Shown piece by piece: positions 34,019 to 54,439 of a DNA stretch of 64,000 nt. The DNA is from a virus, in the IMG/VR virus record IMGVR_UViG_3300042463_000890, positions 1 to 64,000 of that record. One strand, written 5' to 3'. Below the pieces are notes generated by a model. It saw only the letters and a list, made by a program, of their open reading frames with translations. It ran no database searches and had not been told where the DNA came from. Positions within the stretch are counted from its first letter, which is position 1. Every line of letters begins with the position of its first letter. Both the position numbers and the translations under genes were made by a program.

Positions 34019-37000
34019 TTAGATATTTTCAAACGACGCTCCTGTTGGAGTAATGTAGAATGTGATATCAATGAATTCAAGTGACTTAGTTGGTTTGATG
34101 TAAATCTTACCTGTCATTTGGTTTCTATCTAAGTCAGCAGCATCTGAAGAAACTGTTACACGGAAATCGTATACCCCTCTGTCTCTTCTAATTGCGTCTA
34201 AGATAGGATTCACCGCATTTAAGAAGTCTTGTCTTACTTTCTCGTCATTCTGTTCGAATAGTAATCTTACAGAAACCGCTGAAATCAACTTACGAGCTTG
34301 TAGTAACAATCTTCTAACGTTTATTCTGTCAAGTGCAGACTCTCTAATCTGTAAAGTTTTGTTACCCCAAATAACCGTACCAACATCAGAGAAAGTAGCG
34401 ATTGGGTTAAGTCTACCTTTATATAGAGTATCTCTATCTTCTTGAGTTAACTTCTTACGTGCTTTAATTGCGTTTACTATACCACGAGTGTAACCCGCTG
34501 ATGCGAACCATGGGAAAGCGATATTATCTGTTAACGCTAAGTTTCTACAAACTTCAGCAGTTGCTGGAATGTAAATCTGAGTGTTATTTACAGTATCACG
34601 AGTTAGAACCCAAGGGTAGTAAGTACATGTATAGTTAGAATCGATTCCCGCAGTTTCTAAGTTGTCAACCGCTTCTTGAGGATAAATCAAGTCTAATTGG
34701 TCACCTGTTTGAGGTACAAACATATTGTAGTCAGGTGTAGTACAGATGTACAAGGAATCCGCTCTATCGTTTTCAACCATGTCAATCGCGGTACCTACCA
34801 ATCCTGGATGATTTAAATAATCAATACCTGGTGTTACAAATACGTTAATATTAACCGCTTCAGGATTAGCAAAAGTTCTTTGTCCTAATAAGTATGCGTA
34901 GTAGTCAGTGTTTGCCCAATCTTGAGTATTGTCACCAACTGTGATTTGTTTAAACGCTCCCCACCCTGATGCAGTTGGGTATCTAAACGAAGGACACGCT
35001 CCTTTTAAATAACCTGACCTACCTAGAACAAAACGGTCTTGGTTGGTTCTATATTCTCTGTAAATATCCCAACCGTCAAAACCTCCTGAACATAAGAATG
35101 AGAACTTACGTGCGAATAATCTATAGTATTGGTTAGTTTCATCTTCAGGGTCTTGAGTAAATTCAGATGCTCCAACAAAGAATGCTGGTGTTCCACTTGT
35201 ACTAAATGCTCCTGAAATTGTAATTCCACTTGCGTTTTTATCCATGTGGTAACCTCTAGTTTTGTATGCCCATTCATCACCTGAAACATCAGTACAAACA
35301 TCCAATGGTAATTGTTTACCTTTATAAGTGTAAAAATCAACGTCAAAACCAATAGTGTCAGAAATACCCAAATATGTTCTTCTCACATTATCTCCTGCAC
35401 TTCTTACGATATCGTCCGCTCCTGAAGATAAACCAAATGGTGGGTTATAAACAACCTCACCTGGGAAGTCATATTTAGTTTTGTATATTGGGAATGGAGG
35501 TCTAAGACCTGCGTATTCTCTAAATGCGTAACCTTGGAATCCACAAGGTAATGCGTCTACAGGAGCGTCAGGATTAAGTTCCAACATTATAAATTTAGAG
35601 TTTAATTCATATTCACCGTCTACTGAACCAACTTTTTTACCAACGAAATTGTTGTTACTTGGGTCAAGTGAACAGTTAGTGAATTTTTCTAATACTGTAG
35701 GTGCTGAATCAGAGTCAAAGAAATCTCTAACAAATAAATCAAATGTTCCGTTTCCAAATGAAATGTTAGCAATTGAAATCTTAACCTCGATATTAGCCGC
35801 GTCACCGTCAGCGATTGTTGTTACTTTGAACAGGTTGTAAACTTTATTACCTCTAAGTTCAGATACAACCCAAGGTGACATAGGTGATTGATATTTTTCA
35901 AGGTACCACGCGATTGATGTAGGGTCATTACCTTGTCTTGCGTCAGGTAAAGCGGTTAAACTACAATTTAATCCTCTAATGTATCCTTTTCTCCATGCGT
36001 AATTTAATAACGCTTGGAACCTTTCTTCGACAAATAAAGGAACTTCTCTTCTTGGTTTTGCGAAGTTAGATGCTCCAAACACTTTAGAAAGATATTTAGG
36101 GTCTGAGTTTTGGAATGATGTTTCAAAGAAGAAACTTTGACCATCATTATTAGTTACGTTTAGACCAAAAGTTGCATATGGGTTTTTAGTAACCGCACTA
36201 TAACCATTTGTACAATCCATTGATACGTCAGTTAATCCTGTAACTTCGTATACCGCTCCGTCATCAGAAGAATACGTTGCCAATCCTCTTGAACGGAATG
36301 TTGCGATTACTAAATCGTCATAGTCAGTGTAAGCAACACCATCAAACACATATAATGTACCAATCAATTTACCTGTGTAACAATTTACAGGAACAGGTGA
36401 AGGTGTTGGTGTTACATTAGGAAGTGGTGTTGGAGATATACATGGATTAACAGGTGATGGTGAAGGTGTTGGTGTGGTTAATGGTACTGTTGTTGTAGTT
36501 GTAACAGGTACAGGTTGTAAATCTGATACAACACTAAAGAATGAGAATCCACTATAAATTGCGTTTCCTAAGTTATCAAAAGTTGCATAATACCATGGGT
36601 CGTTTTGAGATGCACAATAATTAATCTCAGAAGCGTTAACGTTCTCAACACCGAATACGTTAGTTTCCGCGGTAAATGTTGTTGACAACGCACTATAAAC
36701 ATCTCCTGAAATTGGTCCGTAGTAGTAAATAGAAGTTGCCTCTGTAGATGGAGTTCTTAACACATCAAAAATTTGATTAATCATATTTTCATATAATGTA
36801 GAAGTACTACCATCAAAATTCTCATATGGTAAATATAATTTTTCTAAAAGGTAATCAGGAATGTCTGCAGTGTCTAAGACAATGGTCGATGAATTATTTG
36901 TACATCCTGTAAAGTCAATTGCATAATCTATAGTTAGATATTCATCACATTGTTCAACACAGTTTACAGTGGTGCTAGACAAACAATAAAAATCAACCGT

Positions 37001-37351
37001 ACTACAGTCAACGTTAGCCTTTGTACTTATAGACCAAGAAGGTCCAGCGTCGTAACCCGAAAGTCCTAAAACTCTAGTTACAAACAACTGATTAGATTGT
37101 TGTAAATATGATTTAGCAATGTATGCCGCCTCATACTTAGGAATTTGGGTGTTTATGAATTTCTCTGGAGACGTTCCTCCAAAATATGTAGAGAATTCAT
37201 CAAAGTTTCTAATAAAAATAGGTTCAAATGCAGGTCCTTTAATTGTTTCACCCACAATACCTAAAGTAGTAACCCCAACGCTTTGGGCTACGAAACTTAA
37301 ATCTACTTCTGATGTATATACCCCAGGGGATACGAATACTTTGTTTGCCAT
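34019..37351 (-). CDS. Tail sheath protein, gp18-like, with Thr/Pro-linked insertion
   Basis: A 1,110-residue sheath protein, about 450 longer than T4 gp18 (659). The N-terminus KVFVSPGVYTSEVDLSFVAQ is diagnostic, as is the end with NVRRLLLQARKLISAVSVRL, YKGRLNPIATFSDVGTVIWG and a last strand IKPTKSLEFIDITFYI. These conserved ends drive the contractile fold. The extra mass lies in the middle: residues about 105-430 carry Cys-containing beta sequence and a Thr/Pro/Ser linker at about 283-325, so additional domains are probably exposed on the outside of the sheath. A TATTTAT motif stands 39 nt upstream and a terminator follows. Confidence 0.93.
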   Translation of the reverse strand: MANKVFVSPGVYTSEVDLSFVAQSVGVTTLGIVGETIKGPAFEPIFIRNFDEFSTYFGGTSPEKFINTQIPKYEAAYIAKSYLQQSNQLFVTRVLGLSGYDAGPSWSISTKANVDCSTVDFYCLSSTTVNCVEQCDEYLTIDYAIDFTGCTNNSSTIVLDTADIPDYLLEKLYLPYENFDGSTSTLYENMINQIFDVLRTPSTEATSIYYYGPISGDVYSALSTTFTAETNVFGVENVNASEINYCASQNDPWYYATFDNLGNAIYSGFSFFSVVSDLQPVPVTTTTTVPLTTPTPSPSPVNPCISPTPLPNVTPTPSPVPVNCYTGKLIGTLYVFDGVAYTDYDDLVIATFRSRGLATYSSDDGAVYEVTGLTDVSMDCTNGYSAVTKNPYATFGLNVTNNDGQSFFFETSFQNSDPKYLSKVFGASNFAKPRREVPLFVEERFQALLNYAWRKGYIRGLNCSLTALPDARQGNDPTSIAWYLEKYQSPMSPWVVSELRGNKVYNLFKVTTIADGDAANIEVKISIANISFGNGTFDLFVRDFFDSDSAPTVLEKFTNCSLDPSNNNFVGKKVGSVDGEYELNSKFIMLELNPDAPVDALPCGFQGYAFREYAGLRPPFPIYKTKYDFPGEVVYNPPFGLSSGADDIVRSAGDNVRRTYLGISDTIGFDVDFYTYKGKQLPLDVCTDVSGDEWAYKTRGYHMDKNASGITISGAFSTSGTPAFFVGASEFTQDPEDETNQYYRLFARKFSFLCSGGFDGWDIYREYRTNQDRFVLGRSGYLKGACPSFRYPTASGWGAFKQITVGDNTQDWANTDYYAYLLGQRTFANPEAVNINVFVTPGIDYLNHPGLVGTAIDMVENDRADSLYICTTPDYNMFVPQTGDQLDLIYPQEAVDNLETAGIDSNYTCTYYPWVLTRDTVNNTQIYIPATAEVCRNLALTDNIAFPWFASAGYTRGIVNAIKARKKLTQEDRDTLYKGRLNPIATFSDVGTVIWGNKTLQIRESALDRINVRRLLLQARKLISAVSVRLLFEQNDEKVRQDFLNAVNPILDAIRRDRGVYDFRVTVSSDAADLDRNQMTGKIYIKPTKSLEFIDITFYITPTGASFENI

Positions 37352-37638: not shown

Positions 37639-38672
37639 ATTAGATTAATAAACAACTCTAATTTAGACTCTAAAACATCGTCATTTTTTTCTATTATAAT
37701 TTTTAACACATCGTTTGTGTTAATTTGAATTTCACTAACATCTGAACCATAATAATCGTTGTTAATATAAACATCAAAAGTATTAATATTTTCACTTAAC
37801 CCGACAAGGATATTCGCGGTATAATTAAATAATTGAGACAAGGTTGTATTACCAATAACAAAAATTAAATTTTCAGTAAAACTTGATGGGTCATCATCTT
37901 TTTTAACTTTTCTTTTTGTTGTTCTAGTATCAACTTCCACAACTTGTAGTAGTCTATTTATTGCAGGAGACACCTCAAATTCATCTTCATCAATTAAAAA
38001 CCCTAACATAGTAAATTCATAACTTTGGATATAATATTTTCTTTTCTCAGCATCTAAAACAGATTCATCAGAAATATTATTCATAACTATTGGGATATAA
38101 TGTCCTTTAATTACTTGATAGGCTTGTCTTGATGAAAATTTCTCTAAAACAATTTTATTAAACTTATTTAATTCCCTCATTCTGTTACAAAGTATTTTAA
38201 CTTGATAAGTAATATCGACAGGAACAGGTTGAGGTATTTTATATATGTCCATACCATGTCTATTACCATCCCATGTAGGAACTTGAGCATAAAAATATTG
38301 TCTTCTATTTGGTATGGTATATAATAAAGACGGGTTTGTACCATACTTAACTTCGGGAACTCTTACCGTTGTAATAAAAGGTAATTCAACATTTTTGTCT
38401 AAATTTTGTATATCCCAAGTTTCAGTAAACTGAGACCAATTTTGAGTTGTAACAATTATATCTATAGTCGGGACTGTTTTCCCTTCAACACTTAGTTTTA
38501 ACTCGTCTTTTACAAAATCTAAAAACCCCCTATCCAAATCAGCGTGTAAAATAGATTTTGGCAGATATGTACCATCTTTATTAATTTTTTCAACTAATTC
38601 TTCCCTTCTAGGTAAAAGAGTTTTAGATGAGGTTAAAGGTATATTCTTTTTTATTTTTTTTGGTAATGGCAT
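37635..38672 (-). CDS. Probable tail terminator / sheath stabiliser, gp15-like
   Basis: A 345-residue protein. The middle carries a pattern I associate with gp15-like tail-completion proteins: VPEVKYGTNP, IPNRRQYFYAQVPTWDG, PVPVDITYQVKILCNRMREL, then KFNKIVLEKFSSRQAYQVIK. T4 gp15 (272 residues) caps the tube and sheath before head joining. The C-terminal ~100 residues are a separate beta-rich extension (NTFDVYINNDYYGSDVSEIQ). It lies just upstream of the sheath gene in the transcription order, as gp15 does relative to gp18 in T4 (genes 16 and 17 intervene there). It overlaps the 496-residue gene by one base. The assignment is by pattern and position and remains tentative. Confidence 0.6.
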   Translation of the reverse strand: MPLPKKIKKNIPLTSSKTLLPRREELVEKINKDGTYLPKSILHADLDRGFLDFVKDELKLSVEGKTVPTIDIIVTTQNWSQFTETWDIQNLDKNVELPFITTVRVPEVKYGTNPSLLYTIPNRRQYFYAQVPTWDGNRHGMDIYKIPQPVPVDITYQVKILCNRMRELNKFNKIVLEKFSSRQAYQVIKGHYIPIVMNNISDESVLDAEKRKYYIQSYEFTMLGFLIDEDEFEVSPAINRLLQVVEVDTRTTKRKVKKDDDPSSFTENLIFVIGNTTLSQLFNYTANILVGLSENINTFDVYINNDYYGSDVSEIQINTNDVLKIIIEKNDDVLESKLELFINLI

Positions 38673-40162
38673 TATTTTAAAATTTGAGGCATTTCATTAA
38701 AAATCGCCATTGTCTTTGAAACGACTTTGTAATTACGATTATCAAAAATTAATATCTCATCATTTTTTGAGAAAGCTATTTTATCTACTTTTTTACCTGA
38801 ATAATCTCTCATACCATAAGTATTAATTGTAAACACCCCGTTTTTATCGGTATAGGAAGATAAAGGTTTTATTTGATAACTAACACCGTCAATTATAACA
38901 TCAACACCTCCCCATCTATCCATTTTAGAACCAAAAGGAAAATATACAACGTTATTGGTATTCATTTTATTTAAAAACTTGTCAACCGAATCCTTTTCTA
39001 ATTTAAATCCCCTTTCAATTGATTTCCATTGTCTATCAACTAAAAGTTTGACAAAGTTTTTATCTTTTTTAAATAGTTTTACCATCCAATCAACAATATC
39101 CCCTTCAAAAACATCATCAAAATATTTTAAATAAATTAAATTGTGTATTTCTTCTTTTGTATCAAAAAAATTCATTATCGACCAATCTTCTCTAGGGTCC
39201 CCAATTTTACTACCTATTGTGTGTATACCTCTCAAACCTGGTGAAAAAATGGGTGTCTCCGCTTTCCAATGTCTAGGAAAAGCTTTTTCTAACGCAGTTC
39301 TAATATTTGATGAAGTTATACCAATCTCTTCTGTTTTTTTAACTCCTTGATATTTCGGGTATGCTAATTCAAAATTTTCTTTAGTTATTGCAATAGTATT
39401 TTTTTCAGGGTTTATTATTAAATCCCCTTTGTTAAAAATGAAATCTCCTGACGCTCCTTCAATCTTTATTTTTCCATCAATTGGGTCGGGGTCATTAACT
39501 GGTAGAACACTATTAAAATAATATCTTTTAGTTGTGCCTTTTTCAAAAAGACCTAATGTGGTGTAGGTATATTTTGTCGGTTCTGATTCAGAGGTTTCTT
39601 CAGACTCTATCAATCTACTTGACACAATTTCAGAAATTACAAATAATTTGTTTTTTTGATTTATCATGTCAACTTCCTTGGCGGTATAAACAGGTTCTTC
39701 AGTGTCTTTATAAACAAACGAATCATATTTATATGGGTTATATGTAACAATTTTACTTGACGATTCTTCAGGTATGTTATCACAAGGATATTCACAATAA
39801 TCTACTAAAGTACCAATCACAAAGGCGTGAACATTCTTTGACATTTCTTGTCTAACACGTTGTTTCCCGCCCTGTCTAACTCTAAACTCAACATTTTTAA
39901 GTTTTACATAATCGGCATGTAAAATAACTTTTGACTTATATGTTACAGAAAATGTGTGTTTATGTAAATTATAATAAACCATAACTTTTTTACCTCGGTA
40001 ATCTTCTTCAGAATTGTTATGACCACATTTATGACAAATAAACGGGTCATTACCACCATCACTTAAGTCCCAAGACCAACCACAATTATCACAAATAACT
40101 TCTTGATTAGAAATTTTTTCTAATAATTTTGTTTTTTGTTTTTCTGTAATTAATATTTTCAT
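38672..40162 (-). CDS. Zinc-ribbon protein with C-terminal PD-(D/E)xK-like nuclease domain
   Basis: A 496-residue protein. After a short N-terminus (MKILITEKQKTKLLEKIS), C24, C27, C43 and C46 form a zinc ribbon (ICDNCGWSW ... FICHKCGH). The middle (60-300) is beta-rich and unknown. The C-terminal part holds RWGGVDVIIDGVSYQIKPLS, where D421, Q430 and K432 fit the D-x(n)-(E/Q)xK core of PD-(D/E)xK enzymes. The superoxide dismutase fusion at 42825-44363 shares the same GGVD...QIKP signature. Possible roles are DNA processing or attack on host DNA. It overlaps its neighbours by one and four bases, so it is part of a coupled minus-strand group with connector-like genes. Confidence 0.68.
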   Translation of the reverse strand: MKILITEKQKTKLLEKISNQEVICDNCGWSWDLSDGGNDPFICHKCGHNNSEEDYRGKKVMVYYNLHKHTFSVTYKSKVILHADYVKLKNVEFRVRQGGKQRVRQEMSKNVHAFVIGTLVDYCEYPCDNIPEESSSKIVTYNPYKYDSFVYKDTEEPVYTAKEVDMINQKNKLFVISEIVSSRLIESEETSESEPTKYTYTTLGLFEKGTTKRYYFNSVLPVNDPDPIDGKIKIEGASGDFIFNKGDLIINPEKNTIAITKENFELAYPKYQGVKKTEEIGITSSNIRTALEKAFPRHWKAETPIFSPGLRGIHTIGSKIGDPREDWSIMNFFDTKEEIHNLIYLKYFDDVFEGDIVDWMVKLFKKDKNFVKLLVDRQWKSIERGFKLEKDSVDKFLNKMNTNNVVYFPFGSKMDRWGGVDVIIDGVSYQIKPLSSYTDKNGVFTINTYGMRDYSGKKVDKIAFSKNDEILIFDNRNYKVVSKTMAIFNEMPQILK

Positions 40163-40455
40163 TTTTTCTTTCTAACTTTATTAAATCCCCTTCTAATTTT
40201 ATCATTATATTCTCCCCCTACAATCGTTAAAAAATTGTATCTTTCAAAATCAATGTCAGGGTACTTAGTTTTAAATATTCTACTAACTCTTTGTATCACC
40301 CAATTTTCATAAACTCCAAAGTTGTCAGGTTTATTTCCTGGCCCACCTTGTTTAATGTCGTCATTCAAACTATCAATAGCATAATTAACAAATTCACCTA
40401 TTTCATATATTCTTCTTAATACACCAATCTGATTTTCTGTAATTATTATATTCAT
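40159..40455 (-). CDS. Small hypothetical basic protein sharing an N-terminal motif with its neighbour
   Basis: A 98-residue protein opening MNIIITENQIGVLRRIYEIG, which matches the first nine residues of the downstream 496-residue protein (MKILITEKQ). The rest is helical (FVNYAIDSLNDDIKQ) with a loop of Gly/Pro, and the C-terminus is strongly basic (DKIRRGFNKVRKKK), as for a DNA- or capsid-interior-binding protein. It overlaps its neighbours by four bases and one base. No family is recognised. The shared start may be a sorting or packaging signal (see findings). Confidence 0.7.
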   Translation of the reverse strand: MNIIITENQIGVLRRIYEIGEFVNYAIDSLNDDIKQGGPGNKPDNFGVYENWVIQRVSRIFKTKYPDIDFERYNFLTIVGGEYNDKIRRGFNKVRKKK

Positions 40456-41021: not shown

Positions 41022-42782
41022 GTGTCTGAAAATATATCAAATCTAATTGAACAGAGAGCACTTTCAATCTTGGATTCATATTCAGGGGCGAATAACTATA
41101 TACTAAAATTAAAAAATCAGAAAGATAATAATAAAAAATTTTATCCGACTAGGTCTCAATCAGACTATATTATATCTTTTCATGATAAGTCCCCAAAAGT
41201 AGGAAAAAAATGGGTTGACTTGGACCCTTATTTCGCAAAGAAAATCGCAGATGAAAAACTCTACATGGAAATTCCAAAACAAATTTGGGTAGAGAAATTA
41301 TTAGCCGAAAAAGAAAAATCATATCATATATGGGGTAAAATATTCGAGTCTCAAGAAAACCATGATTTTTGGGTCCCTAAAGCCGCGTTATTAAAAACCC
41401 ATAAAGTTGAAAAGATTGATATAGATTATTCTAAATATTCTCATAGACCTCCTCTTGAGCACCAAAAAGAAGCTATTGAAAAATTAGCAGGGTCAAAGAG
41501 ATTTATTTTAGCGGATGATATGGGATTGGGTAAAACTACATCAACGATAATCGCCGCTTTAGAAAGTAATGCGAAAAGAATATTAATAATTTGTCCTGCA
41601 TCACTTAAAATAAATTGGGAAAGAGAGATTAGAAATTATACCGATAGAAGTGTTTATATTGCCGAAGGGAAGAATTTTTCAACTGAACATGATTTTGTTA
41701 TTGTTAATTACGATATTCTAAAAAATTTTTATGATATTAAAGAAAAAGAACAATCACTAATATATCAATTTGACCCCGAATTAATCATTATTGATGAAGC
41801 TCATTATATTCAAAACGCTCAAGCCCAAAGAACCAAACTTGTTAATAATTTTTCTAAAAAAGTAGACAAACTTTGGTTACTGACAGGGACTCCAATGACA
41901 TCAAGACCTATGAATTATTACAATTTATTAAGTCTAATTGAAAGTCCTGTCGCCCAAAATTGGATGGCTTACGCAATTAGATATTGTCAAGGGTATCAAT
42001 TTAAAGCTGGTAATAGAAAAGTATGGAATGTGACAGGAGCTTCTAATTTAGAAGAGCTTAGAGACAGAACCTCCAAACAAGTATTAAGAAGATTAAAAGA
42101 AGATGTATTAGATTTACCTGATAAAATAATAACACCTGTATACTTGAGATTAAAATCTAAAATGTATGAAGGTTTAATGGGCGAATACTATGATTGGTAT
42201 GACAATAAAACCGACGAGTCAAATTCATTAACAGTCCAATTTTCAAAATTAATGAAAGTTAGACAAGTTATCGCAAATGAAAAAGTCGACTCTACTATAG
42301 AATTGGCTCAAAATATAATAGACCAAGACAAAAAGGTTATTATTTTTACAAACTTCACTGACACGTTAACAAAAATTAAAGACCATTTTGGTAAACAAGC
42401 CGTTTTTTTAGACGGTAGTTGTACTAAACCACAAAGACAATATGCGGTTGACCAATTTCAAGAAAATGAAAAAATAAAAGTTTTTGTTGGTAACTTAAAA
42501 GCCGCAGGAGTTGGTATTACATTAACCGCTGCGGAGGCGGTTATTATGAACGACCTGTCATTTGTACCATCAGACCACTCTCAAGCTGAAGACAGGTCAT
42601 ATAGATATGGTCAAAAATCTAATGTTTCTGTATATTACCCAATCTTTGAAAACACGATTGAAGGGATTATTTATGATATGTTAAAAAACAAGAAAAATAT
42701 ATTTGAAACTGTGATGGGGGACAATTTAAACAAGTCTGACATCATCGAAGAAATGATGAATAAAATTAATACGCTGAGATAA
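41022..42782 (+). CDS. Snf2/SWI2-family DNA translocase (helicase)
   Basis: A 586-residue two-lobe ATPase. Motifs in order are I LADDMGLGKTTS (K171), Ia ILIICPASLKINWERE, II IIDEAHYIQ (D258-H261), III WLLTGTPMTSRPMNYYNLL, IV VIIFTNFTDTLTKI, V NLKAAGVGITLTAAEAVIM and VI SQAEDRSYRYGQ. The DMGLGKT and the RxYRxGQ pair mark Snf2 rather than UvsW-type enzymes. Members remodel protein-DNA or branched-DNA structures; SMARCAL1/HepA-type members anneal strands. The start is a GTG, since an in-frame stop lies 18 nt upstream and no ATG falls between. It is the first gene of the plus-strand run; the 51-base gap before it is shared with the divergent connector-like gene. Confidence 0.92.
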   Translation: MSENISNLIEQRALSILDSYSGANNYILKLKNQKDNNKKFYPTRSQSDYIISFHDKSPKVGKKWVDLDPYFAKKIADEKLYMEIPKQIWVEKLLAEKEKSYHIWGKIFESQENHDFWVPKAALLKTHKVEKIDIDYSKYSHRPPLEHQKEAIEKLAGSKRFILADDMGLGKTTSTIIAALESNAKRILIICPASLKINWEREIRNYTDRSVYIAEGKNFSTEHDFVIVNYDILKNFYDIKEKEQSLIYQFDPELIIIDEAHYIQNAQAQRTKLVNNFSKKVDKLWLLTGTPMTSRPMNYYNLLSLIESPVAQNWMAYAIRYCQGYQFKAGNRKVWNVTGASNLEELRDRTSKQVLRRLKEDVLDLPDKIITPVYLRLKSKMYEGLMGEYYDWYDNKTDESNSLTVQFSKLMKVRQVIANEKVDSTIELAQNIIDQDKKVIIFTNFTDTLTKIKDHFGKQAVFLDGSCTKPQRQYAVDQFQENEKIKVFVGNLKAAGVGITLTAAEAVIMNDLSFVPSDHSQAEDRSYRYGQKSNVSVYYPIFENTIEGIIYDMLKNKKNIFETVMGDNLNKSDIIEEMMNKINTLR

Positions 42783-42797: not shown

Positions 42798-42804
42798 TAT
42801 TTAT
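42798..42804 (+). promoter_or_regulatory. TATTTAT candidate late promoter before the SOD-fusion gene
   Basis: Plus-strand GATTATTTATAGTATATTAA, 20 nt before the ATG at 42825, in the gap after the Snf2 gene. It suggests the fusion protein is made late with virion genes. Confidence 0.5.
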
Positions 42805-42824: not shown

Positions 42825-44363
42825 ATGAACAAATTAGAAGAAAGAGTTCATTTACTTAACGAACAAATACTCTTACAAGAAAAAAACCAAGACAAATTAC
42901 ATTTCCTTAATGAAATGAAAAAGATTGGTATAGAAAAATTACCATATTCTTATTCATCTTTAAAACAATTTATCGATTCTGAGACTATGTCTTATCACTA
43001 TAACAAACATTATAAAGGTTATGTTGATAAACTAAATAAAGCTCTGTCAAAAAAGGATTACGGTGATTTAGAATTAGAAGAAATTATTAAATCAATTAGT
43101 AAATACAATACCACAATTAGAAACAATGCGGGAGGAGCGTTCAATCACGCTTTGTTTTGGAAAATGTTATCCCCAAAAAAACAAACTCCTAAAGGAGACT
43201 TATTGAAAAAATTAAAATCCGATTTTGGAAGTTTTGAAAAATTTAAAACTGAATTTGAAGAAATTGCTAAAGAAAGATTCGGTTCAGGTTGGGTTTGGTT
43301 AGTTTTAACTAAAAAAAATCAATTAAAGATAATGTCCACCCCTAACCAAGATAACCCATTAATGAATGTTGTTAAAAGTGGTGGGTACCCAATATTAGGG
43401 TTAGATTTATGGGAACACGCATATTATCTAAAATACAAAAATAAAAGAGACGAGTATATCTCTAACTTTTGGAAATGTGTTAATTGGGATTTTGTAGACG
43501 AATTATTTTCATTACGCTCTAATAGAAAATTAAATGAAGGGAATATTATTAAACAAGTAATTAGTGAAGGTATTTCTGAAAGATGTTCGAGAGAAGAAAA
43601 TGAAGCAATACGATTTATTTTTAACATTAATCCAAAGGTTAAACAAATTTTTAGATTAAAAATAGATTCTATTTTAAAAGAAGTCTTCAAAGAAAATTAC
43701 TATGAAAAAGGTGAATATGGTGAAAATGAATCTTCAGGTATCTATGATTTAGAGACTGAAGGTAGGTCAGTAATTAATAAACTTAACACTAACTACACTT
43801 GTTTTTGTATTTTATTAAATGATGTTAATAAAGTTTTAGAATATGAAAAACAACCTAAAATTAAATTGATTGGACAACCTCCCTTTGTTCAGATTAGTGA
43901 AACTAAAAAATTTGTTAATGTAATTGAAAAATACAAAGACAGAATTTTTAACATACAGTCACCAACGTTTTCAAACCTAATGTCAACTTTAACTAAAACA
44001 AATTCAATTGGAGATAAAACTGAAAACTCAACCGTTAATATTTTAAAGAAAAAATTTGGTGAGGAAAACGTTGTTCAGATTGGTAAATTAGGGAGTACTG
44101 AAGACATGGTTGGGGGTGTTGATTGTGAGATAGTAATTGATTCCATAACTTACACCGCACAAATAAAACCTTACACTAATTTTAAAAAGATTGATGATAG
44201 TTATGTGGTTTACGGCACAGGTCAAGTTAAACCGTATAAAACAGACTTTTTAATTTTTACTAAAAGTAATAAAGATGTTTTAGTTTTTAAAAATGAATCT
44301 ACTAAAATCATAAATGGTAATTTTGTTTTACCTGTGGGTAATTTAATTTATCAACTCAATTGA
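42825..44363 (+). CDS. Mn-type superoxide dismutase domain fused to a PD-(D/E)xK nuclease-like domain
   Basis: A 512-residue fusion. Residues about 38-235 are a complete Fe/Mn superoxide dismutase: metal ligands H58 (SYHYNKHYKGYVD), H108 (NNAGGAFNHALFW), D194 and H198 (LDLWEHAYY). The NNAGGAFNH form and Q175 in STPNQDNPLM point to the Mn or cambialistic type. Residues 240-430 are unknown, mostly helical. Residues about 395-512 hold MVGGVDCEIVIDS and AQIKPY, where D433, Q446 and K448 fit a PD-(D/E)xK core, as in the gene at 38672-40162. A 37-residue charged helical leader precedes the dismutase. The gene stands before the neck gene with a TATTTAT motif upstream. All dismutase residues are intact, so activity is likely; the joint function is unknown. 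Confidence 0.9.
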   Translation: MNKLEERVHLLNEQILLQEKNQDKLHFLNEMKKIGIEKLPYSYSSLKQFIDSETMSYHYNKHYKGYVDKLNKALSKKDYGDLELEEIIKSISKYNTTIRNNAGGAFNHALFWKMLSPKKQTPKGDLLKKLKSDFGSFEKFKTEFEEIAKERFGSGWVWLVLTKKNQLKIMSTPNQDNPLMNVVKSGGYPILGLDLWEHAYYLKYKNKRDEYISNFWKCVNWDFVDELFSLRSNRKLNEGNIIKQVISEGISERCSREENEAIRFIFNINPKVKQIFRLKIDSILKEVFKENYYEKGEYGENESSGIYDLETEGRSVINKLNTNYTCFCILLNDVNKVLEYEKQPKIKLIGQPPFVQISETKKFVNVIEKYKDRIFNIQSPTFSNLMSTLTKTNSIGDKTENSTVNILKKKFGEENVVQIGKLGSTEDMVGGVDCEIVIDSITYTAQIKPYTNFKKIDDSYVVYGTGQVKPYKTDFLIFTKSNKDVLVFKNESTKIINGNFVLPVGNLIYQLN

Positions 44364-44383: not shown

Positions 44384-45505
44384 ATGGCAATTATAGCAGA
44401 ACCAGAAAGAAGTCAACTTTACACAAGACTTAGACATATTTTAGGTGCTCCTCTTAGAAGTGTTGAATTGGAAGATGAGCAATTGGATTCTCTTTTAGAG
44501 ATTGCAATCGAGGATTATTCTCAATATGTCCAAGATTGGTTAATTGAATCTCAATGGACTGCATTATATAATTTAAATTTAGACACCCAATCTTTAGCTA
44601 AAGCATTTGTTACTAAAAGTTTAGATTATGAACAAAGATATACTTACGCATATTCTAAAATAGTGGGTTTACAGACCAACGGTGATTCCGTTCTAAAAAA
44701 AGATTACATCCAATTAGTTAGAGGGCAACAAATATATGAAATTCCTGCGGGTAGAGAGTTAAATGAATTATTGTGGTTTACTCCCGCAGAACTTAATAAT
44801 TTATTATTTGACCCTTGGACTTTCGGAGCTTTAGGTGGTGTTGGTTTAGGAGGCCCTGGGGGTTATTCACAAATGGGAATGTCTGGGTCATATTTTATGA
44901 TGCCCGCGTTTGATATGTTACTGAGAATGCAAGAAATTAATATTCAAAGAAGAATTATTGCTGGTGATTTAACCTATAGAATGACGGCATTACCTGAAGG
45001 TAAAAAGGCTATTCATCTAATGAATGTCCCTGGAGGTAAATTTGATTTTGGTAACGCTACTTTAATGAGAGGTAAAGTTTGGTATTGGTATTATGAGGCG
45101 GAAGGTTCTGATAGAGACAAATGTCTAAAAGACAATCCTGACATTATTAAACTACCTTCAGATGTACCGTTTGAAAAAATCTCTTGGGAGGATTTAAACA
45201 ACCCTGCTCAGATATGGGTTAGAAGATATTTTTACGCAAGCGCTAAAGAAACTTTATCTAAAGTTAGAGGTAAATTTAGTGGTAACATTAAAACTCCTGA
45301 TTCGGAATTAACTTTGGATTATCAATCATTAGCGACTGAAGGTAAAGATGAAAAAACTAAATTGATTGAGGAATTAATTGGTGCTGAAGGTAGACTTACA
45401 AGACTAAGACCTGAAAAGGTTATGGAGAGAGAAGCTTTGTTAGCGGAAAACCTTAACAAACAAAAAAGATTTACTGCAATGCCAAGACAAATTTACGTTA
45501 TTTAA
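44384..45505 (+). CDS. Neck protein, gp13-like
   Basis: A 373-residue protein. The helical N-terminus (LRHILGAPLRSVELEDEQLD, then LLEIAIEDYSQYVQDWLI) and the later IWVRRYFYASAKETLSKVRG followed by KFSG are typical of T4-type gp13 neck/head-completion proteins. T4 gp13 has 309 residues. With gp14 it builds the neck that links the portal to the tail. A Gly/Met-rich stretch at residues 142-180 (GGVGLGGPGGYSQMG) is a flexible loop. It follows the fusion gene by 20 bases and precedes a small beta-rich gene by one base. The gp13 call is by pattern. Confidence 0.75.
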   Translation: MAIIAEPERSQLYTRLRHILGAPLRSVELEDEQLDSLLEIAIEDYSQYVQDWLIESQWTALYNLNLDTQSLAKAFVTKSLDYEQRYTYAYSKIVGLQTNGDSVLKKDYIQLVRGQQIYEIPAGRELNELLWFTPAELNNLLFDPWTFGALGGVGLGGPGGYSQMGMSGSYFMMPAFDMLLRMQEINIQRRIIAGDLTYRMTALPEGKKAIHLMNVPGGKFDFGNATLMRGKVWYWYYEAEGSDRDKCLKDNPDIIKLPSDVPFEKISWEDLNNPAQIWVRRYFYASAKETLSKVRGKFSGNIKTPDSELTLDYQSLATEGKDEKTKLIEELIGAEGRLTRLRPEKVMEREALLAENLNKQKRFTAMPRQIYVI

Positions 45506-49452: not shown

Positions 49453-51159
49453 TTAACTTTCTTTTCTTAATTTTCCATCATAGTGGTCAAACCTATTATG
49501 TTCAGTTGGTGTCATTAATAACAAACCTGAGGATATATGACCTTTAATTGTTTCTTGATACATATGACTCATCCAAGTCTGCTCAAATGGGTGTCCCCAC
49601 TTTGTTTCTAAAAACATTTTTTTGTTTCCTTCTTTTGAAACTATTTGAGGCCAATTACAATAATATACCTCACCTAAAGCATAAGGAACATCTTTATGTA
49701 TTTTAATTTTTGTAAACACAGTATTTGGAGCCTCAGGGTCTAATCCTAATTGTGGGAGTGTTGGTTTTTCGGGCCAATGGGTTTCTCTAAAATTTTGAGG
49801 TACGTTATACCAACTCCATTGTGTTGAATTGTTACCAAAAAATTCAGTAAAATTTAATTTAAGAAAATCTAATTCTTCTTTTTTTATGATTTCTAAAGAT
49901 TTGTTAAATAAATCATTAACATATCTGTTAAATCCATTTTTACAAGTCTCCCCTGGTTTTGGGTAAAAAAACATGTCATCTTCAAAAAATAACATATACT
50001 CTAATTTAGTTTCGTCAAAATGTTCTGCAATCCATTGTCTTCCACCACAGATTCCTAAGTTGTCCATTTTTATATGGGTGAATCCGTAATCGTCACAAAG
50101 TTTTTTATATTCAGGAGTTGTTGATAAATCTGTAGAGTTATTTAACAAATATTTTTCTGTCTTATCTAAAAAATCAGAATCATATTCTTCCATTGACTTA
50201 ATTAAAGTTCTAAACTGATTTGGACTATTAAATGTTAGAACATAAAGTCCTACACCTTTATTGTCAGATTGTTTTAGAACATTTATTTTTTTAAGTATAT
50301 TTTTCGAATCTTTAATTTTTTGACCTTGAGTCTTCACAACTAAAGAATCATTTTTCAAATCCTCAAAAAATTTACCAACTAATCCGTTACTTTCAATTTC
50401 AAAATAATTTATTAAATTATGATTTTTATATAACATTATTGAAAATACAGATTCTTCAGTCCCCATATAACCTTTAGAAAGAGTATCTTTTAAAGATGAA
50501 TAATATATTGTATTAATATCACTAATACTATCTTTAGGCCCTCCAAAGAACCCTCCCCTAGGAATTAATTTTACATCGGATGATGCCCATTCATTAATTT
50601 TTGGATAACTAAATCCGTGTATTTCATTATTTGCATTATACGGAAAACAAACAAATGAAAACTTATTTATATATTTTGGTAATTTTTCTAAAACTTTATC
50701 ATGTGTGAAATATCCTGAATGAACTGTGTTTGTCAACCCAGCATCAATCCAAAACATGTATTTTGAATTAAACCTATCTAATAACTTCGCATCATGTAAT
50801 AGAAATATCTTTGACATAACTAACGGGTTATACATTTCTAATTGAGCTTGTGTAGAATCTTTTAACCAACTCGCCTGATTAAACCAATTAGGGTCTTTTC
50901 TTATTTTTTGTATTAAAGGATAAAATTCGTTTGTTTTAAACCAAGTTTGACTTCTAACTATAAACTGAGTATTTTCTTTTTTTCTATGTTGCCAAACAAA
51001 TGATTCTAATTCTGGTTCACCAAAAATAATCATTTTATTTTCGACCTTTAGAAGTTGGGAAAATTTGTCTTTATAATGGTCAAATGTTCTAGACCATCCT
51101 TCTTTAAGATTAACTCTTCCTATATCCCATAATCCTGTTACTAAAGTAATTTCAGACAT
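49453..51159 (-). CDS. Two-domain putative glycosyltransferase: HtrL/YibB-like plus GT-A (GT2-like)
   Basis: A 568-residue cytoplasmic enzyme without membrane segment. Residues 1-285 resemble the HtrL/YibB (WlaTC) glycosyltransferase family: TLVTGLWDIGR, NPLVMSKIFLLHDA, YMFWIDAGLTNT, GGFFGGPKDSI and MGTEESVFSIM. Residues about 305-568 are a second GT-A fold: GLYVLTFNSPNQFRTLIKSM, then ICGGRQWIAEHFDE and the metal-binding FFEDDMFF. Two catalytic units on one chain would add two sugars in turn. It is the last gene of the minus-strand group 54439-49453 and overlaps the methyltransferase by one base. Acceptor unknown; neighbouring mucin-like virion proteins are candidates. Confidence 0.78.
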   Translation of the reverse strand: MSEITLVTGLWDIGRVNLKEGWSRTFDHYKDKFSQLLKVENKMIIFGEPELESFVWQHRKKENTQFIVRSQTWFKTNEFYPLIQKIRKDPNWFNQASWLKDSTQAQLEMYNPLVMSKIFLLHDAKLLDRFNSKYMFWIDAGLTNTVHSGYFTHDKVLEKLPKYINKFSFVCFPYNANNEIHGFSYPKINEWASSDVKLIPRGGFFGGPKDSISDINTIYYSSLKDTLSKGYMGTEESVFSIMLYKNHNLINYFEIESNGLVGKFFEDLKNDSLVVKTQGQKIKDSKNILKKINVLKQSDNKGVGLYVLTFNSPNQFRTLIKSMEEYDSDFLDKTEKYLLNNSTDLSTTPEYKKLCDDYGFTHIKMDNLGICGGRQWIAEHFDETKLEYMLFFEDDMFFYPKPGETCKNGFNRYVNDLFNKSLEIIKKEELDFLKLNFTEFFGNNSTQWSWYNVPQNFRETHWPEKPTLPQLGLDPEAPNTVFTKIKIHKDVPYALGEVYYCNWPQIVSKEGNKKMFLETKWGHPFEQTWMSHMYQETIKGHISSGLLLMTPTEHNRFDHYDGKLRKES

Positions 51160-51788
51160 TATTTTTTAATTTTACAAACCCAAACAACTTTGGAGAATTT
51201 ATCTTGGTTATAGAAGCTTAAATTGTTTTCAGATGATGATTTTGAAATGTCATCCTCCACAATTTCACACCAATTCCATATTTTATTATTAATTTCTTTT
51301 TCAAATGTAGACTTATCAATACAATAATCATGAGCCATAATAAAGTCACCTGACTTAATATACTTAGACAATATGTTAAACTCACCTATCTTCCATCCAC
51401 CGTCACATAAAACTAATGTAACACCTTCTGATGAGACATAATTTTTTATTTCTAATGGTATATCTTTATAATCGCCAAATATATCCTCAATCCTAACATC
51501 AATTCCTCTTTTAATCATATCATTATACCAAGGTCTTGCGCTAATATCAAAAGTTAATATATTGGTATCTAAATTTAATTCATCAATCGTTGTCTTTAAA
51601 AACATTGTAAATCCACCTAACGCGGTACCAATTTCTAAAATCCTCTTAGGTTTGACTTCTTTTATAAAATCATAAAATACTTGATATACATCGTGATGTT
51701 GTTGAGCGGAATGACCATCAAACGATGATAAACTGTCGTTCGCTAATAAATTTGTTTTTTTAGTAATTCTGTTTTTAATATTTTCCAT
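51159..51788 (-). CDS. SAM-dependent methyltransferase (class I, Methyltransf_24/CmcI-like)
   Basis: A 209-residue Rossmann-fold enzyme. Motif I is RILEIGTALGGFT (SAM-binding glycine loop), motif II is ILTFDISARPWYND, motif III is VRIEDIFGDY, and the later LVLCDGGWKIGEFN and FIMAHDYCID resemble sugar- and antibiotic-tailoring methyltransferases (CmcI/NovP-like), which often use Asp-bound metal. It is embedded among glycosyltransferase genes, so O-methylation of a transferred sugar is a reasonable guess. It overlaps the next gene by one base and follows the upstream GT by 13 bases. Confidence 0.82.
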   Translation of the reverse strand: MENIKNRITKKTNLLANDSLSSFDGHSAQQHHDVYQVFYDFIKEVKPKRILEIGTALGGFTMFLKTTIDELNLDTNILTFDISARPWYNDMIKRGIDVRIEDIFGDYKDIPLEIKNYVSSEGVTLVLCDGGWKIGEFNILSKYIKSGDFIMAHDYCIDKSTFEKEINNKIWNWCEIVEDDISKSSSENNLSFYNQDKFSKVVWVCKIKK

Positions 51789-51801
51789 GTTTAAAATATA
51801 A

Positions 51802-52509
51802 TTAAAATCTTATATGTGTAACCCCTGTATTTGCTACGAAACTAAAAAAATCTTTAAGTTCGTACATTTTTTTCCAATCCATGTTCATATTAGCATCTAC
51901 TGCTGACATACCAATTTCAACCCCTTCAGCAAATGCCCAAATATCATTTTTAACCCCAAATTCATTTCTTTCTTTCCATTTGTTGACAAATGTTTTAAGT
52001 TTTGGGCTATTTTTAAAAACTAAAAATTGTTCATTAACTACTTGTGCTTTATCATAACGAGTGGTGTTTAACAGTCCGTAGGGTTCTACTTTGTGTCTCC
52101 AAAAACATTTGTGTGGGTCCCTTTTTGTGTCTCCTATCGAATGAGGTCTTTCGTAGATAAAATCTAAATTACTGTTTTTAAATGATTCTAAAAATGAAAG
52201 TAATTTACTTTCATTATAACCATTGAACAAATCCCAATCTGCATCAAAAAATAATACAAAATCAAAATCTAATTTTAATGATTCCATTATTGGGATGTAT
52301 TTTAAATTGTAATTAAAATAATTTTTAATAAATTTTACTTCATTATTGTTAAATTTTACAAATGATGTGTTTTTAACTTCTTTATGGTTCCCGTCAGTTA
52401 TTATTAATACTTTATGAGTAATTGATTTTTCATTTAATTTTTCAGCAAATTTAATGGCTGATTTTAAATATTTTTCACCTATAGCAATAGTACAATACAC
52501 ATATTTCAT
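51802..52509 (-). CDS. Putative glycosyltransferase, GT-A fold with DxD (DAD) motif
   Basis: A 235-residue protein. It opens with a strand and helix (KYVYCTIAIGEKYLKSAIKF), then VLIITDGNHKE, and has the metal/nucleotide-sugar site VLFFDADWDLF. Later QVVNEQFLVFKNSP and DIWAFAEGVEIGM follow the plan of GT8-like and related small GT-A enzymes. No transmembrane segment is present. It overlaps its upstream neighbour by four bases (ATGA-type coupling). Sugar and acceptor unknown. Confidence 0.75.
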   Translation of the reverse strand: MKYVYCTIAIGEKYLKSAIKFAEKLNEKSITHKVLIITDGNHKEVKNTSFVKFNNNEVKFIKNYFNYNLKYIPIMESLKLDFDFVLFFDADWDLFNGYNESKLLSFLESFKNSNLDFIYERPHSIGDTKRDPHKCFWRHKVEPYGLLNTTRYDKAQVVNEQFLVFKNSPKLKTFVNKWKERNEFGVKNDIWAFAEGVEIGMSAVDANMNMDWKKMYELKDFFSFVANTGVTHIRF

Positions 52510-53198
52510 AATTTGTCCGCAATTTTAATTGTGTCTTCATTAAATGGACCATTATCGTGTACGATGATTGGGTCATAACCATTAATTTTTACTTTATTAT
52601 TATTCAATTCTATATTTTTTTTGGAGTTAAGTGAACTCATGAAAAATTCACAATTATAGTCTATTAAAATATCATCATGAAGGAGATACTCAATAGACCA
52701 TTTACCTTGGTCATCAATACCTGTGTCGTAAACTTCTTTGATTATCTTTTCTAAATGAAAAATAATTTTATCAACGTATCCAAAATATGTCCCAGAATTT
52801 AAGTATTTGTATTCTGATGTAATATTTTTTTTGTTATAAAGATGTGTAAATGAATTTGGTGGCCATAGACATTTCTCGGCCCCCATAATTATTGAACAAT
52901 TTTTTTCTTTGAACTTATCCACAATATCTTTAGGTGAGGAGTAAAAATTTGTGTCGGTCGCATCTAAAAATAATATGTAATCATAGTTGTTAATTATATT
53001 ATTTTTAATATACTCCAATAACATTACCACTTTATAAAAGTAAAGTTTGTCATAGTATGAATCACCTTTAAATAAGTTATTATGTCTTATAACATGTATA
53101 TCGTTTTTGTCAAAAAAATTTAATGCGTTTTTGTAAAATAGTGGGGTATAACTATTTGGGTAATCAAACAACACTGTTATTAATGCGATGTTTTTCAT
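52506..53198 (-). CDS. Putative glycosyltransferase, procollagen/PLOD-like GT domain
   Basis: A 230-residue protein with the signatures of the lysyl-hydroxylase-type glycosyltransferase family. NIALITVLFDYPNSYTPLF starts the nucleotide-binding fold, DYILFLDATDTNFYSSPKDI is the DxD-type site, YKYLNSGTYFGYVDKI is the family hallmark, IDDQ follows, and the end DPIIVHDNGPFNED matches the HxNG(P) close. In animals such domains place galactose or glucose on hydroxylysine of collagen; viruses such as mimivirus also carry them. Here the acceptor is unknown. It overlaps both neighbours by four bases. Confidence 0.75.
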   Translation of the reverse strand: MKNIALITVLFDYPNSYTPLFYKNALNFFDKNDIHVIRHNNLFKGDSYYDKLYFYKVVMLLEYIKNNIINNYDYILFLDATDTNFYSSPKDIVDKFKEKNCSIIMGAEKCLWPPNSFTHLYNKKNITSEYKYLNSGTYFGYVDKIIFHLEKIIKEVYDTGIDDQGKWSIEYLLHDDILIDYNCEFFMSSLNSKKNIELNNNKVKINGYDPIIVHDNGPFNEDTIKIADKL

Positions 53199-54439
53199 AA
53201 GTTACCGACTAATCTTTCGCACCAACCTTTAGAAACTGAGTGAGGCCAAACAACCCAATACTTAGGTTTTTCTTTGGTGTTGAACTCTCTCCATATTTTA
53301 CAGTACTTATCAGGGTCAGTCATCATTCTATTTATTTCATTAATATCGGCATCCCTTCTGAAGATAGTTTCATCTTTTTCATCGTGGAAAGCAACAACCC
53401 AAAAGTCATAATCTTTTTCAGGTACTTGACTAAAACTAACATCAATACAATGTTTAAAAATTGACAAGAAACTATTTTCCCATTCCTCATCAGTTTCATA
53501 TATTGTTGGATTTGGCGGATAATTTTTGTCGATAGTATACTGTTGTACCGCTCTTTTTGAAAAACTTAATCCTGCATATATTTCATACTCTTTTAAGGTT
53601 CTCTCAGTTCCGAAACCGTATTTTCCGAAATCAATCGAGGTCTCACCGTCCATCCCAAAAAGTTGTCTATTCTTTTTATGTGAACTATCATTTTTCTTAA
53701 ACCATTCTTTATCGTCATCCCACTGTTTGGTTCTATTTTTTCTTGTGTATTCGTGCCAAATAACTGTTTTGTGTGGATGGAATAAATCATATCCGTGAGT
53801 GTAAGCTCTAACCGCGATTGAAATTTCTTCTCCATGGAAATAAAACTCAGGGTCGTGTTGAACCTCTTTTGCAAATTTACCTAAAGTAAAACAAAAATGT
53901 GCGGAATAAAATCTTGCAGGAACAGGTTCAGTTAAGTTTTCCCACCCAGGAATTGTTTCAGGTAAAAAGAAAACCGCTCCTTCAGGAATAAATCTGTCAA
54001 AAGCCATTCTCCATGGTTCTTTAACTCTACCTTGTGGGTCATTATCAGGGTCAAATGATGAAACGTATGATGTTAATAAAGGTTTTTCAAAACCTTTATC
54101 TTGTAATTGTTTAACCATATTGATTAAGGTTTCATCCCAATCTTTGTCAAACCTCATATGAGAGTCTAACTGTAATGTATAGTCTTCATCTTGGTACAAT
54201 TGTTGAACTTTATTTCTTGCCCAACATACTCCTTTAGATTCTGAATACAATACGTTTTCTACTCTAAATCTTTCGTCAGATTCAAATTCAGTTAATTCGT
54301 CAAATTTATCATCAGGGTGATATTGTCTACAAATACCAATTCTTAAATTTTCAGGATGTTTTGCATTTTCCAACATGTCTTTTAATGTTGGTATTAATTG
54401 CGGGTCTCGATAAGACGCAATCTGAACAAATATTGTCAT
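53195..54439 (-). CDS. Putative GlcNAc transferase of the Skp1-GnT (GT60) family
   Basis: A 414-residue protein. The N-terminus TIFVQIASYRDPQLIPTLKD, the IGICRQYHPDD element, the DSHMRFDKDWDE motif (metal/nucleotide site), and FYFHGEEISIAVRAYTHGYD with HPHKTVIWHEYTRKNR are characteristic of the family typified by the Dictyostelium enzyme that adds GlcNAc to hydroxyproline of Skp1. Bacterial and viral members occur, mostly of unknown acceptor. It starts the minus-strand glycosyltransferase group, 48 bases after the BspA-repeat gene, with a TATTTAT motif 19 nt upstream, and overlaps the next gene by four bases. Confidence 0.85.
   Translation of the reverse strand: MTIFVQIASYRDPQLIPTLKDMLENAKHPENLRIGICRQYHPDDKFDELTEFESDERFRVENVLYSESKGVCWARNKVQQLYQDEDYTLQLDSHMRFDKDWDETLINMVKQLQDKGFEKPLLTSYVSSFDPDNDPQGRVKEPWRMAFDRFIPEGAVFFLPETIPGWENLTEPVPARFYSAHFCFTLGKFAKEVQHDPEFYFHGEEISIAVRAYTHGYDLFHPHKTVIWHEYTRKNRTKQWDDDKEWFKKNDSSHKKNRQLFGMDGETSIDFGKYGFGTERTLKEYEIYAGLSFSKRAVQQYTIDKNYPPNPTIYETDEEWENSFLSIFKHCIDVSFSQVPEKDYDFWVVAFHDEKDETIFRRDADINEINRMMTDPDKYCKIWREFNTKEKPKYWVVWPHSVSKGWCERLVGNL

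Follow-up and report, generated by a model that had tools for sequence, protein, structure and literature searches.

A single viral gene joins a complete Fe/Mn superoxide dismutase (SOD) to a C-terminal domain with the predicted fold of a PD-(D/E)xK nuclease, and among its relatives the position of the gene is conserved while the module behind the SOD is exchanged. The gene lies in the window analysed here, a stretch of 64,000 nucleotides comprising positions 1 to 64,000 of IMG/VR virus record IMGVR_UViG_3300042463_000890 (Table 1). A linker with two conserved protease-type sites separates the enzymes, and relatives of the phage encode a matching prohead protease. We lean towards the view that the product is a late, head-packaged polyprotein that would be processed to separate SOD and nuclease molecules and delivered along with the phage DNA.

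The fusion gene and its two halves

The gene is one uninterrupted frame from ATG to stop, encoding 512 residues (59.5 kDa if uncut). At least 585 of at least 599 IMG/VR pattern matches encode a relative of the fusion, a figure in which the weaker matches may be plain SODs. All 80 of the best relatives, which were kept, span residue 1 to at least residue 508 at 58-100% identity. The metagenome search for this architecture proposed in the first-pass annotation, a reading of the DNA letters alone, thus recovered it at full length in all the relatives kept, and the assembly error that the same annotation had named as fatal to its interpretation is excluded, as is a chance fusion. The window protein and 32 of the 80 relatives make up a non-redundant set of 33 sequences (less than 93% identical), used below.

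The architecture has already been deposited, under a label that covers just the first half. In a search of a viral structure library, the C-terminal model is matched along its length by UniProt entry A0A6J5L953 ("superoxide dismutase", 501 aa, from an uncultured Caudovirales phage; 38% identity, E 3.8e-26), so the earlier claim that no such pairing is known does not hold for deposited sequences. It does hold for descriptions of the pairing, none of which was found in the literature searched, namely open-licence PMC, with bioRxiv outside the scope. Among isolated phages, 29 records matched, with the SOD part alone, several of them resembling short unannotated or bacterial records, and none covered 80% of the query.

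Table 1. Features of the fusion gene and its surroundings, in positions of the window
Feature	Position	Strand	Basis
SNF2-type DNA helicase (presumably UvsW-like), left neighbor, conserved	41022..42782	+	
TATTTAT promoter-like element, 20 nt before ATG	42798..42804	+	
SOD-nuclease fusion gene, 512 aa	42825..44363	+	ATG-to-stop ORF, Pfam, IMG/VR relatives
Leader helix, residues 1-30, ending (L/I)xE30	42825..42914	+	alignment, structure model
Fe/Mn superoxide dismutase, residues 37-226, Mn-type signatures	42933..43502	+	Pfam, PDB SODs, ligands
Linker, residues 232-251, candidate prohead-protease sites L-N-E238/G and I-S-E248/G	43518..43577	+	
Middle region, mostly helical, residues 252-390	43578..43994	+	C-terminal model, structure search
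PD-(D/E)xK nuclease fold (predicted), residues 392-512	43998..44360	+	model, fold matches, invariant residues
E400	44022-44024	+	predicted catalytic residue
D433	44121-44123	+	predicted catalytic residue
Q446-x-K448	44160-44168	+	predicted catalytic residues
Neck / head-tail adaptor protein, right neighbor, conserved	44384..45505	+	phrog_211, 3.1e-10

Both Pfam domains of the SOD exceed their cut-offs (Sod_Fe_N at residues 37-116, E 2.4e-22, 79.7 bits against 27; Sod_Fe_C at residues 122-226, E 2.6e-41, 140.2 bits against 20.9), and in a fold search with the whole model PDB SODs match at Z about 17. Residues H58, H108, Q175, D194 and H198 are identical in 33/33 non-redundant sequences. The three His and one Asp metal ligands are also kept in all 136 distinct SOD proteins, as is the second-sphere Tyr pattern, and 133 of the 136 have the Gln-bearing NQD motif. 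The complete SOD reported at first pass is thereby borne out, and every catalytic residue named there, D433, Q446 and K448 included, stands at its position in all 33 sequences. The assignment rests on sequence because the predicted model is weak in this part (pLDDT below 50 at residues 30-54 and 76-85). AGG and NQD, which we take to be signatures of Mn-type SODs, are both present, and the best NCBIfam score is that of the Mn model (206.6 bits, below its cut-off of 363); which metal is used, Mn or Fe, cannot be read from sequence alone. Of the 136 distinct SOD proteins, 134 have a hydrophobic-x-E stretch directly before the SOD core; Glu30 is followed by Met in 128 of the 136 and by Ala in 6.

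In the fold search with the whole model, the best 50 rows all aligned to the SOD part, so residues 232-512 were folded alone (49 sequences; mean pLDDT 85, pTM 0.78). The best Foldseek matches in the PDB were the homing enzyme I-Ssp6803I (E 8.2e-3, probability 1.00) and the resolvase Hjc, at modest E-values (no PDB row at or below 0.001). VIA-align placed Hjc first (Z 8.6 over 102 residues, rmsd 3.4), followed by I-Ssp6803I, the SPARDA nuclease, NhoI, Eco15I, HhaI and DpnI. These top structural matches share the PD-(D/E)xK fold, and the matched portion is residues 392-512. Four residues of this portion, D433, Q446, K448 and the previously unnamed E400, are invariant in 33/33 non-redundant and 49/49 C-terminal sequences. 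Because the Foldseek E-values are modest, the nuclease claim rests on the fold together with E400, D433 and Q446-x-K448, which we presume to represent the PD-(D/E)xK signature. The PD-(D/E)xK-like end suspected at first pass is thus supported by structure prediction, and residues 392-512 are a predicted nuclease.

For the middle region (residues 252-390), no match was found among the rows listed in the search with residues 232-512 as one model. Searching PDB sequences with a profile built from the C-terminus gave nothing useful (best E 0.087), and no family in Pfam, NCBIfam, PADLOC or PHROGs matched it at the sequence level (best E 0.017, below cut-off). Hits to PF21566 and phrog_17195, at E 0.017-0.28 and below any cut-off, were dropped. 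In bacterial and archaeal genomes, a scan built on two short conserved peptides found C-terminal relatives at 0 of 587 pattern matches.

Linker, tags and head genes

The linker is predicted to be disordered (residues 232-251, pLDDT below 50) and carries two candidate sites of the type recognized by the T4 prohead protease gp21, which is described in the portion of PMC9026906 available as cutting after L/I-X-E. Across the 49 C-terminal sequences, position 236 is L, I or M in 48 and position 238 is E in 46; position 246 is I or L in 48, position 248 is E in 48, and position 249 is G, S or Q in all 49. Complete sites are found in 45 sequences for (L/I/M)-x-E238, in 48 for (I/L)-x-E248 and in 44 for both. 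The residue after E238 is mostly S, T or N (S 30, T 8, N 7, G 2, I 1, V 1), which is wider than the strict S/G/A rule. The motif (L/I)xE is very short, and the linker glutamates can be conserved for other reasons. Among 54 distinct tails behind the SOD, [ILM]xE[SGA] starts in the first 30 residues of 46, against 4, 0, 0, 4 and 2 in the five bins of equal size that follow, and against 3, 6 and 6 when the first 30 residues were shuffled three times; these tails are not independent, because their linker ancestry is common. Comparison of the sequences indicates that the linker is kept while the domain behind it is replaced. The first-pass annotation had envisaged a SOD that protects while the same protein cuts, a picture that is not supported because the linker suggests enzymes that become separated and either part is found alone in relatives.

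Most of the large relatives have head genes of the T4 type. Both gp21 (PF03420) and gp23 (PF07068) were found in 7 of 10 large relatives, and bS21 (PF01165) in the same seven, at E of at most 0.01 in all seven and over the family cut-off in five. The three without these genes are linear records of 160-200 kb, which may be fragments, and neither gp21 nor gp23 was found in the window's own partial record (86,648 bases). In six capsid-protein precursors examined, L-I-N-E/A stands about 60 residues in. One large relative, G002, encodes a paralogue of the nuclease (1.9e-11) next to gp23 (L311:2360-3316; G002 118104-119060), flanked by gp21 and by a gene that is called scaffold-like solely for its position and acidic make-up.

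Sites of the same kind recur at N-termini in these genomes. With ORFs called mechanically in the large records (ATG, at least 70 aa, little overlap), (L/I)xE(S/G/A) falls in the first 10 residues of 32/316 ORFs in G002 (5.5 after shuffling), 20/351 in G003 (5.45) and 12/296 in G005 (4.5), where the two bins that follow contain 14 and 12 and the N-terminal peak is accordingly not sharp. The control, crAss001, gave 3/97 against 1.8, and the window's own record gave 0/72 for the strict motif (shuffled 1.1). A stricter two-site regex over local ORFs yielded 4 matches in the first 40 residues and 78 elsewhere, with no N-terminal enrichment; both the strictness of this pattern and the shortness of the loci told against it, and the single-site count in the large relatives was used instead. 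The opening of many tagged ORFs follows MKKIIRLTESDL...VI.EQ and is similar to the SOD-cargo linker, K-L-N-E-S..L-K..I-S-E-G. Enrichment of this kind speaks for a tag, without proving packaging. Thus far, a repertoire of ORFs with N-terminal (R)LTESDL- or ITES-type tags (G002, L321-L336; G003, L411-L426; G005, L427-L440) can be listed as candidate head-packaged proteins, and no description of the LTES tag was found in the literature searched, within the same scope as above. In the window itself, two reverse-strand ORFs at 38672-40455 start with MKILITEKQ and MNIIITENQ. Both starts resemble the tag, but the residues that follow the Glu are unusual. The ORF beginning with MKILITEKQ also contains a CxxC...CxxC stretch and matches phrog_586.

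A TATTTAT word precedes the fusion gene. It lies within 60 bp upstream of 15/43 window genes against 0/43 mid-gene stretches, and of 101/316 ORFs in G002 against 3/316. The reverse word ATAAATA is rarer upstream (5/43 in the window, 34/316 in G002), and the strand-oriented TATTTAT is probably the phage group's own promoter word. Late expression, which the first-pass annotation had read from this word, appears likely because TATTTAT also precedes the sheath, tube and neck genes of the window, though its presence before a DnaB-like helicase gene weakens the argument. The tail sheath is very long (1110 aa, window 34019-37351), with only about the last 215 residues matching known sheaths. Elsewhere in the window, 49453-54439 holds weak glucosyl-HMC glucosyltransferase-like and methyltransferase-like matches, a 2OG-Fe(II) oxygenase and a glycosyltransferase, a cluster for possible DNA or surface modification.

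From these observations we infer, with moderate confidence, the following course. The gene would encode a modular internal-head polyprotein that is expressed together with the virion genes and taken up into the prohead core. There, a gp21-like prohead protease would cut after Glu238 and Glu248, and possibly also after Glu30, releasing two products, the SOD with about 208-238 residues and the PD-(D/E)xK nuclease with about 264; for cuts at 30, 238 and 248, the computed values are about 24.5 kDa and pI 9.4 for the SOD and about 30 kDa and pI 8.2 for the nuclease. Both enzymes would accompany the DNA in the head and pass into the host cell during infection. The SOD might then remove superoxide in the host, or might guard the packaged DNA before infection, and the nuclease might attack host DNA, competing DNA or a defence. 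Carriage in the particle had been suggested as a possibility at first pass, and the linker with its protease-type sites adds new circumstantial evidence for it.

The fusion could instead remain uncut in the cytoplasm of the infected cell, as a two-headed enzyme whose SOD, a redox defence brought by the phage, lowers superoxide for host and phage and whose nuclease processes phage DNA in a resolvase- or packaging-type role or degrades host DNA. Such a role would suit the best structural matches, a Holliday-junction resolvase (Hjc) and a homing enzyme (I-Ssp6803I), as well as the adjoining SNF2-type helicase gene, and in the accessible part of PMC6802176 freshwater phage SODs have already been proposed as a defence against ROS. 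However, it leaves unexplained a disordered linker whose two conserved protease-type sites are kept across unrelated cargo, and the N-terminal tag family and the nuclease paralogue in the head operon point to the head. We consider the cytoplasmic enzyme unlikely, if still a serious contender to the packaged polyprotein.

A conserved slot with interchangeable cargo

The gene is flanked by the SNF2-type helicase, for which we assume the name UvsW, and the neck protein in SOD-bearing and SOD-less relatives alike, an order inspected in 7/7 SOD-less and 40/71 SOD-bearing distinct proteins; one relative lacks the right side, where its contig ends, and some have extra genes in between. In the search based on the C-terminus, SOD-less versions account for 28 of 232 loci, a set of 232 in which many are the same contigs retrieved by more than one scan, and for 7/78 distinct proteins. 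One group of these versions (L113, L114) retains EMKKIEIEKL, a remnant of the stretch directly before the SOD, as if the SOD had been excised. In other relatives, ORFs of about 220 aa, HNH-like by eye, are inserted between the helicase and nuclease genes (L242:2325, L238:757), as if the slot attracted mobile genes.

The slot was also sampled independently of the fusion gene, via the neck protein of two relatives, giving 140 loci, of which 137 are complete across the slot and 96 distinct. Because these scans keep the 80 nearest relatives of each of two queries, the architecture frequencies are not population estimates. A SOD is present in 81/96 distinct loci, an HExxH module in front of it in 54/96, and a nuclease without SOD in 14/96. 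The piece behind the SOD can be one of two related nuclease types, one of three unrelated modules, a stub, or nothing. The commonest arrangement is HExxH-SOD-tail B (23/96), followed by HExxH-SOD without cargo (19), SOD-nuclease A (18, with 3 and 1 more that have a separate further ORF) and nuclease A alone (13, with 1 more that has a further ORF). Less common are HExxH-SOD-tail C (6), HExxH-SOD-tail D (5) and SOD with a stub (4), and HExxH-SOD-tail E, SOD-tail C and tail C-type ORFs alone occur once each. Some relatives have lost the SOD and others the nuclease, so neither is indispensable to all of these phages.

By hhalign, tail C and nuclease A are distantly related (probability 97, E 8.6e-11), and their D and QxK positions coincide in the alignment; the other nine pairs among modules A-E gave probabilities of at most 11.5. 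Tail B had looked like a PD-(D/E)xK domain by eye and was set aside as such, hhalign being unsupportive (probability 1.8). On a FastTree tree of helicase and neck protein, the tail changes at least 15 times (minimum of 50 shuffles, 54), SOD presence 3 times (shuffle minimum 12) and the HExxH module once (shuffle minimum 27). Modules C and E are found as ORFs of their own too (L296, L279, L242; L259, L283, L299), in some cases with an N-terminal tag, and tag-like N-termini are likewise seen in standalone relatives of the cargo modules. Across phages the module is swapped, and in the proposed packaging scheme it would be the cargo. The HExxH module itself comprises about 125 residues (HEWVH...NEDEAN; for example L302:2881-3255 and L264:3885-4259), with HEW(V/I)H in 54/54 and (N/I)EDEA(N/S) in 43/54, and had no significant match in the family searches, NCBIfam among them. 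It is a candidate metallopeptidase that the window protein lacks, the second motif being the candidate source of the Glu expected downstream of HExxH.

With 81/96 distinct loci, the SOD is the most constant module while the cargo changes, which would also be expected if its fold were a dimerising or head-binding carrier for swappable cargo, with catalysis secondary; the fold search moreover returned SOD-fold chains of plastid RNA-polymerase structures. The intact active site argues against this carrier: a protein serving purely as a scaffold would probably have lost part of it, yet the four metal ligands and the second-sphere Tyr pattern are kept in 136/136 proteins and the NQD Gln in 133/136. 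In addition, 19/96 loci have HExxH-SOD with no cargo behind it to carry. We regard the carrier as quite improbable. Finally, four relatives have only a tag stub behind the SOD (L254, L256, L277, L310) and two a truncated nuclease (L265, L269), which we read as decaying cargo; such tails might hint that the fusion is itself a chance joining, read-through or assembly artefact, a notion with practically no credence left, refuted by the 80/80 full-length relatives and opposed by catalytic residues invariant in both halves in 33/33 sequences.

Returning to the packaged polyprotein, a broader proposal can be made tentatively, and with less confidence than the course set out above for this one protein: a single precursor, composed of an optional metallopeptidase, a SOD and an interchangeable effector, may be packed into the head, cut by the capsid-maturation protease and co-delivered, from a fixed slot of large phages that probably infect Bacteroidota. 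If so, redox protection and DNA attack would reach the host at once, and capsid-maturation proteases would split multi-enzyme cargo in addition to maturing heads. The LTES-type tags on dozens of ORFs would mark an injected proteome and offer a lead to proteins that lack one. The proposal would also provide a testable reason for the carriage of SODs by some phages, and a natural blueprint by which multiple enzymes could be packaged as, and then set free from, a single head-targeted chain. The fold families, and packaged, protease-matured proteins as an idea, are already known; in the literature searched, we saw none of the SOD-nuclease pairing, swappable cargo behind a constant SOD, or protease-type sites between enzymes.

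Comparison with known systems

Bacterial SodA (PF00081 and what we take to be PF02777) has in common with the phage protein both Pfam domains, the four metal ligands and the AGG/NQD Mn-type signatures. Identity of the SOD part to bacterial SODs is 46-50% for Bacteroidota and 48-50% for Halomonas and Lentisphaerae (12 loci). To our knowledge, bacterial Mn SODs have neither the leader helix nor the C-terminal cargo of the fusion. A viral parallel is A245R of the chlorovirus PBCV-1, a SOD that is expressed late and packaged in the virion; it is of the Cu/Zn type, unrelated to the SOD of the fusion, and belongs to an algal virus, and the available portion of the source mentions no nuclease fusion for it (PMC7019647). 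The predicted nuclease shares its fold and E...D...QxK pattern with Hjc, I-Ssp6803I, NhoI, DpnI and the SPARDA nuclease, and differs from them in the roughly 140 mostly helical residues in front.

At the level of the genome, the large relatives resemble the bS21-encoding freshwater phages of 293-331 kb whose predicted hosts, in the part of PMC9723584 available, are Bacteroidetes. bS21 lies close to gp21 on the opposite strand in both (in 7 of the 10 large relatives), the sizes are compatible (up to 322 kb among the relatives), and the word "superoxide" has no occurrence in the text of PMC9723584. The phages that carry the fusion gene are T4-like and probably infect freshwater Bacteroidota, the placement of bS21 near gp21 being the sole basis of this reading of habitat and host.

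A precedent for the proposed packaging is provided by the internal head proteins of T4 (IPI, IPII, IPIII and Alt), which have a capsid targeting sequence and are processed by gp21. In the accessible parts of the sources, T4 internal proteins are described as diverse, ejected and able to counter host nucleases (PMC3012670), and a staphylococcal nuclease fused to IPIII is packaged and processed in T4 heads (PMC9026906). The fusion and its relatives have in common with them the L/I-X-E sites, a T4-like head gene set in the relatives, and diverse, swappable content attached to a conserved targeting or cleavage stretch. As a candidate counterpart of the N-terminal capsid targeting sequence, the leader of the fusion offers (L/I)xE30, followed by Met or Ala. 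Unlike the T4 proteins, for the fusion packaging is proposed from sequence, its candidate sites also lie between domains, and it and its relatives join two or three enzymes in one frame.
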